Part shown: one piece after another, positions 28,010 through 53,768 of the stretch
Layout of the letters: the number at the start of each line of letters is the position of its first letter
Numbering within the stretch: the first letter of the stretch is position 1
From: Halorussus salilacus
Lineage (GTDB): Archaea > Halobacteriota > Halobacteria > Halobacteriales > Haladaptataceae
NCBI RefSeq assembly: GCF_024138125.1
Contig: NZ_CP099993.1
Coordinates: 1,922,001-1,986,000 of the forward strand
DNA: 64,000 bases
Direction of reading: 5' to 3'
Notes under the pieces: generated by a model
The model's input: only the letters and a program-made list of their open reading frames with translations
Told to the model about the DNA's origin: nothing
Databases searched by the model: none
Made by a program: the position numbers and the translations under genes

Positions 28010-28419
28010 CCGGCGCGGAGCGATAGACGCGACGCGCGGGCTTTCCTATCGAACGATCCGCCGAGAGCGATGCGGCTAGTACAAGCCAGTATAATACAGT
28101 ACAAAGCAGTACTACCAGTACAAAACAGTACTACCAGTACAAAACAGTACTACCAGTACAAAACAGTACTACCAGTACAAAACAGTAGGAAACGGTTGGA
28201 CGCAGTGGGGAACAGTAGCTCCTTGTCCGGTCGTCGGCTCTCGGGAGACCCGAGAACCGACGGCTTCGCGGTTCGCTCCACGCCGAAGCCCAGAGCGAAC
28301 CCCCCGCTCGGGACAAAAGTTTCAAAGGTGGGGGAGTAAGGTAGTGCCAACAGGCGCACGCGCTCGGCGGCCCAGACGGCCGCCGACTTTCTCGCCCTCC
28401 CGCGCCGACACAGCAACCC
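28010..28419. other. gene-free gap with iteron-like array before moxR
   Basis: The 410-base gap contains the AT-rich 19-bp array at 28107-28182. A 13-bp hairpin with one mismatch lies at 28233-28261 (GTCGGCTCTCGGG/CCCGAGAACCGAC). A stretch with AAAGTTTCAAAGG lies near 28316 and a GC-rich leader precedes moxR. No ORF with acidic composition was found. Confidence 0.5.
28107..28182. repeat. 19-bp iteron-like tandem array
   Basis: Four exact copies of CAGTACTACCAGTACAAAA begin at 28107, 28126, 28145 and 28164. Degenerate AGTACAA-type units lie just upstream (from about 28078), and a truncated fifth starts at 28183. Each unit contains GTACT-acc-AGTAC, and neighbouring units create AGTAC-aaaaca-GTACT, so the array is a series of nested inverted repeats. 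It stands out as AT-rich in GC-rich surroundings. It lies about 240 bases before moxR. Confidence 0.85.
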
Positions 28420-50783: not shown

Positions 50784-50921
50784 GGAATCATGATGGAATA
50801 CGTTAACAATGCTGTTGTACATTCTCAAAGGATGTGGAATATACTCTCGATTCGCACGCCGAGTTCGGACGCCCAGTGCCGCGAAGGAAAGGCACTTGAC
50901 CGAACCGCCCGACGTTCCGAT

Positions 50922-51602
50922 ATGGAGAGTCAGCAGACGAGTCAGCCCGAGCGCGAGGGCGTAGCGTCCGTGGTTGTCGTGGATTACGGCCTCGGGAATC
51001 TCCGGAGCGTGACGCGCGGGCTCGAACGAGCGGGAGCGAGCGTCGAGGTCAGCGACGACCCCGAGGCGTTCGCCGACGCCGACGGCGTGGTACTCCCCGG
51101 CGTCGGAGCGTTCCGCGAGGGCGTCGAGAACGCCGGACCGTACCGGGAGGCCCTGCTCGACGTGGCCGAGGACGGGACGCCCGTCTTCGGCATCTGTCTC
51201 GGCATGCAGATGCTGCTCACGACGAGCGAGGAGGCCGACCGCGCGGGCGACGCTGGCACGCGGGCGGGCGAGGTGCGCGGCCTCGACTTCGTTCCGGGGA
51301 CTAACGTCCGATTCGACGAGGGTCAGAAGGTCCCGCACATGGGGTGGAACCGACTGTCGGTCAAGCGCGACCACCCTCTCGTTGAGGGCGTCGACGGCGA
51401 GTACGCGTACTTCGTCCACTCCTACTACGCGGTCCCCGACGACGAGGACGCGGTCGTCGCGACCGCCGACTACGGCGTCGAGTTCCCCGCGGTCGTCGCC
51501 GACGAGACCGGCACCGTCTTCGGCACCCAGTTCCACCCTGAGAAGAGCGGCGAGACCGGACTTCGAATCCTGCGGAACTTCGTGGAACTCTCCGCCGAGT
51601 AG
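50922..51602 (+). CDS. hisH: imidazole glycerol phosphate synthase glutaminase subunit
   Basis: HisH releases ammonia from glutamine for HisF in histidine synthesis. The ATG at 50922 gives 226 residues with VVVDYGLGNLRSVTRGL, the nucleophile loop VFGICLGMQMLL (Cys near residue 90), and the His-Glu pair in GTQFHPEKSGETGLRIL. All triad residues are present. The other his genes are not in the window, so the pathway is dispersed in this genome. It is divergent from the exported nuclease gene. Confidence 0.95.
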   Translation: MESQQTSQPEREGVASVVVVDYGLGNLRSVTRGLERAGASVEVSDDPEAFADADGVVLPGVGAFREGVENAGPYREALLDVAEDGTPVFGICLGMQMLLTTSEEADRAGDAGTRAGEVRGLDFVPGTNVRFDEGQKVPHMGWNRLSVKRDHPLVEGVDGEYAYFVHSYYAVPDDEDAVVATADYGVEFPAVVADETGTVFGTQFHPEKSGETGLRILRNFVELSAE

Positions 51603-51918
51603 TCCGGGCCGTCCTCGGGACGCCGAGGCGGCGTCCACTGACGGCTCTCGCCGAGTGCGTGACGAATCCCGGTCTTCGCTGGGCCCCAGACCGGGCCGCT
51701 ATCGCAGACTCGTTTCGTCAGACTCGTTCGTTGCGTCTCTCGATGATCGCGAACCTCCGAGAGAGAACGACTGCACCCGTCGTTCTCCGAACTGGATGGG
51801 ATTCGTAACTGCATACTTATATATCGTCTTGGATATGTTCTTTATGCTAGGACATTACTTATACTATGTAGAAAACTTTTAGGGTATAGGGGGGACTAAT
51901 ACAATCTGGCACCACGCC

Positions 51919-52389
51919 ATGATTGATATGAACTCACGATCACTCGGAGTCCTTCTCGGATTCGTCGTACTCGGAATCGCTCTCACCGGCGGCGTTGCCG
52001 CCGCTGATGCACCGATAACGCAGGACGGGCCGATAACGCAGGACGGGCCGATAACGCAGGATGCACCGATTACGCAGGACCGGCCGATAACGCAGGACGA
52101 GCCGATTACACAGGACGGGCCGATAACGCAGGACGAGCCGATTACACAGGACGGGCCGATAACGCAGGATGCACCGATTACGCAGGACCGGCCGATAACG
52201 CAGGACGAGCCGATTACACAGGACGGACCGATAACGCAGGGCGCACCGATTACGCAGGACCGGCCGATAACGCAGGACGAGCCGATTACACAGGACGGAC
52301 CGATAACGCAGGGCGCACCGATTACGCAGGACCGGCCGATCACGCAGGACGGACCGATAACGCAGGGCGCACCGATAACGCAGCACTGA
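51919..52389 (+). CDS. secreted hexapeptide-repeat protein, 21 PITQ units
   Basis: The 156-residue protein starts MIDMNSRSLGVLLGFVVLGI (an ATG at 51928 is also possible). It has a hydrophobic signal sequence ending near GGVAAADA. The rest is 21 consecutive PITQ units, almost all six residues long (PITQDG, PITQDA, PITQDR, PITQDE, PITQGA), ending PITQH. Units form a super-repeat of four (A, R, E, G). The DNA is made of 18-bp units with few substitutions, mostly silent or in the sixth codon. No family is recognised. A secreted fibrous or beta-solenoid-like surface polymer is one possibility. TATA-like CTTATACTA lies about 55 bases upstream. Confidence 0.75.
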   Translation: MIDMNSRSLGVLLGFVVLGIALTGGVAAADAPITQDGPITQDGPITQDAPITQDRPITQDEPITQDGPITQDEPITQDGPITQDAPITQDRPITQDEPITQDGPITQGAPITQDRPITQDEPITQDGPITQGAPITQDRPITQDGPITQGAPITQH

Positions 52390-52492
52390 TCGGTCGCGCA
52401 GGGTACCGCCCGCTCGACACGCTCTTCGTATTTCGAGACGATTCCCAAGACGTCTCCGCCGACCCGCCGACTCGGTTACCGACCCTCCGCTC

Positions 52493-52840
52493 TCAGAGAA
52501 AGTCCCGCACGTCGGAGTACCACATGTCGTGGTCGTCGACCGCACCGATGCGCTCGGCGATGGCGACCGCGATGACGTGCCAGCAGAGGTCGGTCGGGTC
52601 CGCGGGGTCGAGGTTGTACTCGCTGTCCCGACAGCCACAGCCCTCGCCCTCGACCACGTACTCGTCGTCGTGGCCCACGACGACCGTGAAGTCCCGGTAC
52701 TCCTTGACCCGACCCTCCGAGACGGCCTCGATGGCCTGCGCACCGCGGTCGTCGTGGACCGAGAGGATGCGTTCTGTGATCTCGGGGGTGAGCCGCCCCG
52801 CCTCCGCGAGGTCGGTCTGCCACCGCTCGACGTCGTTCAC
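52493..52840 (-). CDS. SWIM zinc-finger protein
   Basis: The GTG at 52840 (MNDVERWQTDLAEAG) gives 115 residues. The SWIM motif is CGCRDSEYNLDP ... DLCWHVIAVAIAERIG, i.e. CxC followed by CxH, which binds zinc and contacts DNA or protein. The upstream frame is arginine- and serine-rich and excluded. Stand-alone SWIM proteins occur throughout haloarchaea. Their partner is unknown, though SWIM domains elsewhere pair with recombinases. Confidence 0.85.
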   Translation of the reverse strand: MNDVERWQTDLAEAGRLTPEITERILSVHDDRGAQAIEAVSEGRVKEYRDFTVVVGHDDEYVVEGEGCGCRDSEYNLDPADPTDLCWHVIAVAIAERIGAVDDHDMWYSDVRDFL

Positions 52841-53768
52841 GGGGACCGCCCCCCGCGGCGTGTCGAGCGGTCGCCGTTGGTACCGTCGGCCGGGAACACG
52901 GACGAGGGGTTTGCAGGGTGGGCCTAAACAGGTTCCGGTGTCGTACGTCGGTGCGACCGGTCGTCTCCGCCGCGATGCTGGTCGTGTCGCTCTCGTGACG
53001 GTAGCGACTGCCGGTACCGAGGAGACCGCACAGCACCCCGACCGCACCGCGCCCCCGGACCTCCCCGCGTGCACGAGTCGGTCGCGCCCTCTGGCGCGAC
53101 CGACCCGCGCGGCGCGTCCCGCGGCCGGTCGGGCCGCGCGAAATCGGCAGGAGTCGAGCCCACCGACACGAGAGTTCAAATACGAGAGCGCGGCCAATCC
53201 TGTTCGGACGCTTCGTGCGGTTGCGGGCAGATAGTCGGCGAGTCAGTCGGCAGTGTCGAACTGGTGTCGGGGCCGCCCGCATCGCGGGCGGCCCAGACGC
53301 CCCTACCCCGTAACCGCCAGTCCGACTACCCCGAGAGGGCTGAGCCCCCCAATAGCGACGCAACCGTCTCGTCTCCCGAATCGAACCGGGGTATCGCACA
53401 CCCGGACGAAACACGGGACAGCGCGCCCCAGGCGCGCGCACCAGCTCCCGTCCCACGAACGAGACGATTTCGGGCCGCCGAGCGGCCCGAAATCGCCGAG
53501 CGAATGGCTCCTTTTGGTGTCTTCGTGAGCCAAGCGAACGAAGTCGTTCGAACGTCTAAGCGAACGAAGTCGTTCGAACGGCTCGCCGTTCGTGACACCA
53601 GAAATCTCCGAGTTTCGGGTAGCTCGCTGGAGCTTCGCTCCCTCAGTGCGAATTTTCGGGAGGGTTCGCCAGCAGAGGCGACCGCGATGCGGTCGCCTCT
53701 GTGCACACCCGACGAAGAAAAAAGCTGGAACCGCTTCGCTTTTCGCCGCGGAGTCCCGACTCCGGGGT
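52841..53768. other. 928-base gene-free stretch rich in perfect hairpins
   Basis: Perfect inverted repeats lie at 53078-53103 (11 bp, loop CTCT), 53270-53294 (11 bp, loop ATC), 53421-53437 (7 bp), 53466-53494 (13 bp, loop CGA) and 53674-53700 (12 bp, loop GAT). A complex structure at about 53514-53607 has two copies of AAGCGAACGAAGTCGTTCGA inside outer arms GGTGTC/GACACC. Stem sequences differ from one another. Open frames here are Arg/Pro/Ser-rich and unlike halophile proteins. No RNA gene was recognised. The trm1 promoter must lie at the right end. Confidence 0.6.

Follow-up and report, generated by a model that had tools for sequence, protein, structure and literature searches.

Secreted low-complexity tandem-repeat proteins are a known kind of protein and are usually hard to distinguish from neutral minisatellites. 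Mucin-like Thr/Pro-rich proteins and the O-glycosylated stalks of S-layer proteins are exported and carry Pro/Thr-rich tandem repeats in variable number. In haloarchaeal S-layer proteins, Thr-rich regions bear O-linked disaccharides (PMC2913515), and haloarchaeal O-glycosylation was described as almost wholly unknown in a 2010 review (PMC2913515). Left-handed beta-helix proteins such as gamma carbonic anhydrase and LpxA/GlmU, as well as beta-solenoid ice-binding proteins, have a hexapeptide period with Ile at a fixed position. Secreted repeat peptide precursors of the yeast alpha-factor type consist of a signal peptide followed by near-identical tandem units.

The 64-kb stretch of Halorussus salilacus DNA analysed here (the window) contains a gene that shares features with all of these systems. 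Its product, built of units that begin with the tripeptide P-I-T (PIT), resembles the mucin-like and stalk proteins in its Pro/Thr-rich tandem repeats of variable number, in its export as judged from the signal peptide and in its probably extended shape. Unlike these, the mature part consists entirely of repeats, without an anchor or globular domain, and the PIT proteins keep one exact Ile-bearing tripeptide; their O-glycosylation is putative. No match above cut-off was obtained for the PIT protein in Pfam, NCBIfam, the PDB searched by sequence, or Rfam, and a literature search with the repeat sequences yielded no matching paper. This agreed with the earlier note on this DNA, which knew of no characterised family with a PITQ repeat. 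The Pfam family LED_rpt (PF20854) showed a weak low-complexity repeat similarity (E 0.00032), but its score of 21 bits falls short of the curated cut-off of 59, and the PIT protein is not a member. As far as checked, there is no precedent for the exact tripeptide code combined with variable spacing and a private cis-element.

The gene and its upstream element

The ORF at 51919..52389 on the + strand was confirmed, with 156 codons. Orthologs align from MNTR, corresponding to the ATG at 51928, and in seven of eight orthologs 44-45 bp separate this ATG from a conserved upstream element. Both observations favour ATG 51928 over 51919 as the likely true start (Table 1).

Table 1. Positions of the PIT gene, its parts and its conserved neighbours in the window.
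Feature	Position	Strand	Remarks
Conserved upstream element TAGAAAACTTTTAG	51869..51882	+	BRE/TATA-like, near-palindromic; 45 bp ahead of start codon
Signal-peptide coding region (MNSRSLGVLLGFVVLGIALTGGVAAA)	51928..52005	+	Kept in 8 species; start inferred from orthologs
Mature part: DA, then 21 PIT units	52006..52386	+	
Stop codon TGA	52387..52389	+	Neither anchor nor extra domain beyond
hisH (imidazole glycerol phosphate synthase subunit)	50919..51602	+	Conserved upstream neighbour by synteny; outside PIT function
SWIM-type zinc-finger-like gene	52493..53197	-	Conserved convergent downstream neighbour; name read from sequence, without profile match

The array of 18-bp units at 52012-52383 was by far the top-scoring array of the window in Tandem Repeats Finder, with a score of 471, or 527 with a 36-bp unit. 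It encodes 21 PIT units with a period of exactly six residues. The earlier note had described a protein made almost entirely of PITQDx hexapeptides. The number of 21 units stood, with PITQDx accounting for 17 of them, PITQGA for three and PITQH for the final one. Along the units, the sixth residue runs in the order G G A R E G E G A R E G A R E G A R G A, so that the proposed four-unit G-A-R-E blocks were recovered in imperfect order. The DNA repeats had been called nearly clean, which did not hold: the units share 80-85% mutual identity, with many differences at third positions. Recent 72-bp blocks are present within the array. The mature protein has about 127 residues, about 13.6 kDa and a net charge of about -18; it ends in ...APITQH and contains no Cys.

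The upstream element appears to resemble a BRE/TATA promoter. Pair identity among the eight orthologs was 0.91 in the element versus 0.33 in its flanks. Six Halorussus genomes each contained a single occurrence of its 12-base core, GAAAA[C/G]TTTTAG, invariably ahead of the PIT gene, and the remaining twelve Halorussus genomes had none. The element of genomes G007 and G010 differs from this core by one base. Uniqueness and conservation of the element suggest an additional gene-specific role. An inverted repeat, TGGC-ACCAC-GCCA, was observed at 51907-51919, directly ahead of the start codon. Similar stems with altered bases were present in G003, G007, G009 and G010 and were not clear in G002, G011 and G015.

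Constraint on signal peptide and PIT triad

Judged by eye, the signal peptide MNSRSLGVLLGFVVLGIALTGGVAAA has a positive start, a hydrophobic core and an AxA end, with neither a twin arginine nor a lipobox cysteine. The N-terminal pattern M-N-x-x-x-x-G-[IV]-L-[LV]-G-F is present in the signal peptides of the PIT-repeat family. Across eight species, pN was 0.143 and pS 0.390 (pN/pS 0.37), and pN was below pS in 27 of the 28 species pairs. The signal peptide is under selective constraint on the + strand. Neither a lipobox Cys nor a C-terminal anchor of the haloarchaeal lipoprotein or PGF-CTERM/S-layer type was found in the window protein. We infer from these sequence features that the PIT protein is exported via Sec and unanchored; the signal peptide thus backs the claim of a secreted protein.

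In the relatives, PIT spacings of four, five and six residues are mixed within one protein (PITG, PITQS, PITQDV). Uniform spacing was restricted to the window copy and one more type-A copy (G011). The linkers, one to three residues long, comprised 39 different sequences, and Gln and Asp were frequently missing. With only P-I-T kept, it is this tripeptide, and not the hexapeptide assumed in the earlier note, that forms the conserved unit. At the hisH-SWIM locus, unit number ranged from 8 to 21 across species, each represented by one genome; the expected variation in copy number was thus seen at species level. All changes in repeat length comprised whole codons, and no frame-disrupting copy-number change was found.

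PIT triads were compared pairwise within genes, using 157 triads from 12 genes and allowing one mismatch in three residues. Codon positions 1-2 differed at 0.0047 per site and position 3 at 0.441, so that third positions changed about 90 times as often. The count is slightly biased to conservation, as triads with two changes go unrecognised. In the linkers, codon positions 1-2 showed 0.12-0.55 differences per site. The Ile codons of the triads were ATT (68), ATC (65) and ATA (22), with no ATG in any of the 12 genes. Since homogenisation of repeats would even out third positions too, this pattern points to strong selection on the + strand peptide at PIT. Selection acts on the motif, not on the hexapeptide or a fold, and PIT is probably the functional element of a surface or secreted protein family that has not been described before.

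The array could be a minisatellite by-product, with a frame open by chance and a protein that is not selected. Such an origin would account for the tandem 18-bp units and the recent blocks of 72 bp, for patchy presence and atypical codon use, and for the decay of the G012 and G005 copies. The third-position excess in the PIT codons, the constraint on the signal peptide, the conserved cis-element and the presence of two syntenic loci (see below) all go beyond slippage alone, which makes a neutral minisatellite very unlikely. Codon use itself is unlike that of the neighbours, with ATC for 1 of 21 Ile in the window gene versus 96 of 117 in neighbouring genes; this speaks against a structural protein or polymer made in very large amounts.

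The antisense strand was also considered, on which (C/A)VIG repeats like the hexapeptides of left-handed beta-helices would be encoded. In the window this frame runs uninterrupted over 51879-52448, in the register in which third codon positions of the two strands are paired. Against this, the antisense frame contains stops in 5 of 12 genes (A_G010, A_G007, A_G002, B_G003 and B_G002), and the conserved signal peptide and cis-element lie on the + strand. GTC was used for none of 155 antisense Val codons versus 169 of 254 in neighbouring genes, an absence to be expected if the + strand excludes ATG. An antisense product is almost certainly the wrong reading; judged by these patterns, the + strand is the coding strand.

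Predicted structure and proposed role

For the window protein, AlphaFold2 predicted a beta-solenoid with 21 three-residue strands (best model pLDDT 80.5, pTM 0.67). The repeats would then fold as a solenoid or fibre with three hexapeptides per turn and a regular Thr face, in keeping with the perfect regularity of the window copy. However, pLDDT across the five models spread over 80.5, 65, 57, 47 and 46, and a Foldseek search of the model against the PDB returned nothing at E <= 0.001 (best prob 0.51). AlphaFold2 is known to yield confident, unrealistic beta-solenoids for near-perfect repeats (PMC11795689). In the H. litoreus ortholog, with spacings of 4-6 and modelled with four relatives, only the signal-peptide helix was predicted, without strands (pTM 0.16). 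Unlike left-handed beta-helix proteins, the PIT relatives interrupt the period with 4- and 5-residue units, and a solenoid is quite unlikely. The structure prediction proposed in the earlier note gave a solenoid for the regular window protein and left the irregular ortholog unstructured. The suggestion that regular spacing forms a fibre or a surface that binds ice or minerals found no support, as the spacing is mixed and the irregular ortholog has no predicted regular structure. In our view, the PIT family is probably extended or disordered.

Cleavage by proteases into short PIT peptides, acting as signals or halocin-like antimicrobials, was weighed as another possibility. The signal peptide, the absent anchor, the many near-identical units and their variable copy number would suit a peptide precursor, as would the C-termini, which are almost always PIT plus one residue. 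Unlike precursors of the yeast alpha-factor type, the PIT proteins have no conserved processing site: an invariant cleavage residue between units is absent, and the linkers vary in length and sequence. Processing genes are not nearby. The conserved neighbours are housekeeping genes, and none of the linked genes encodes a protease, a transporter or an immunity function. We consider a peptide precursor unlikely.

Our preferred reading, held tentatively and at slightly less than even confidence, is a Sec-exported, unanchored, acidic and extended or disordered chain that displays many copies of PIT and works by multivalency. PIT motifs on short flexible spacers of one to three residues would form the multivalent display, with the cell surface or the surrounding brine as the site of action. 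Each PIT would be the target of a modifying enzyme or of a partner protein that reads P-I-T. The leading candidate is O-glycosylation of Thr, which would produce a small, mucin-like coat polymer. Copy number would correspond to valency and could change quickly through in-frame duplication of units.

By analogy with the S-layer proteins, the Thr of PIT is perhaps O-glycosylated. The PIT proteins contain no N-glycosylation sequon, so that only O-linkage to Thr would be possible. Plain O-glycosylation alone is insufficient to explain the fixed Ile, since mucin-like linkers keep no single exact tripeptide; the fixed Ile slightly favours a specific reader. No partner gene was identified. A bolder and rather doubtful proposal is that P-I-T is a dedicated envelope recognition or modification site of Halorussus, read by a novel enzyme or receptor, with the PIT proteins as minimal multivalent ligands. 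If true, the P-I-T system would bring to light either a sequon for O-glycosylation in archaea or a code of linear motifs outside the cell. The relatives provide an internal contrast, with one tripeptide frozen at protein level and its surroundings free, and PIT is a concrete candidate motif for binding or modification outside the archaeal cell. If this reading is right, the enzyme could conveniently be sought with this natural substrate and its 21 identical sites.

Distribution, synteny and related copies

Intact orthologs between hisH and the SWIM-type gene were present in 7 of 18 Halorussus species genomes (G000, G002, G003, G007, G009, G011 and G015). An eighth ortholog, in H. amylolyticus (G010), adjoins the SWIM-type gene, with hisH located elsewhere. 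The conserved order is the upstream ORF, read from its sequence as hisH, the codirectional PIT gene, the convergent SWIM-type gene, trm1, a YihY-like gene, a PAP2-like gene and glnA; the last four names are sequence readings. A second syntenic site comprises genes for an enoyl-CoA hydratase and a small zinc-binding-like protein, the PIT gene and an amidohydrolase gene. Paralogs at this site were found in five genomes (G002, G003, G015, G017 and G004), the one in G004 with few and altered triads. The gene is absent from about half of the species, which implies that any role is dispensable. The resolution of the hisH tree was too low to tell gain from loss behind this patchy distribution. The hisH gene of G007 matched in two separate pieces (L086 and L088, G007:C4:403900-404637), suggestive of an insertion, a frameshift or an error in the sequence.

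The hisH-SWIM copies in G012 and G005 are decayed and have lost the upstream element along with the signal peptide. The G012 copy (L046 and L115, G012:C1:2038379-2038609) retains many intact PIT units without a recognisable signal peptide or upstream element. Either it has recently become a pseudogene, or it encodes a PIT protein that is retained in the cell.

The haloarchaeal search suggested in the earlier note placed the family essentially within Halorussus. Beyond this genus, the class-wide search of 391 genomes detected unrelated repeats only. The family-wide search of 28 genomes added a single relative, short and degenerate, from a sister genus (G019, L113). No PIT-repeat match was found in the viral contigs searched. 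Matches in the contig search came from Halorussus (H. litoreus, H. amylolyticus and H. ruber), a haloarchaeal MAG and the bacterium Tepidimonas charontis. In the latter, seven CCCATCACCCACGACCGT units (PITHDR) at L063:3100-3300 abut the start of an acyl-CoA dehydrogenase gene directly downstream; this array was judged to be probably coincidental and was rejected as a relative.

Several minor observations concern the paralogs and the remainder of the window. A near-perfect 19-bp tandem repeat, CAGTACAAAACAGTACTAC, is present at 28097-28187 of the window in 4.8 copies. In two species, paralogs that share the signal peptide adjoin the PIT gene (L026:6769-7092 and L027:4548-4967). They carry a C-terminal GCCCCEWR[FY]xPxL motif with four consecutive Cys, once after four PIT units in L026 and twice in L027. 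The class search with this motif gave three weak matches only, none of them in the Halorussus sample. Paralogs at the second locus (L025:4690-5052, L034:4505-4885 and L023:5125-5510) share a terminal C-x-x-L-T-[DQ]-P-x-C motif. In L023 this motif is truncated by a stop codon, and its remnant is still legible downstream.
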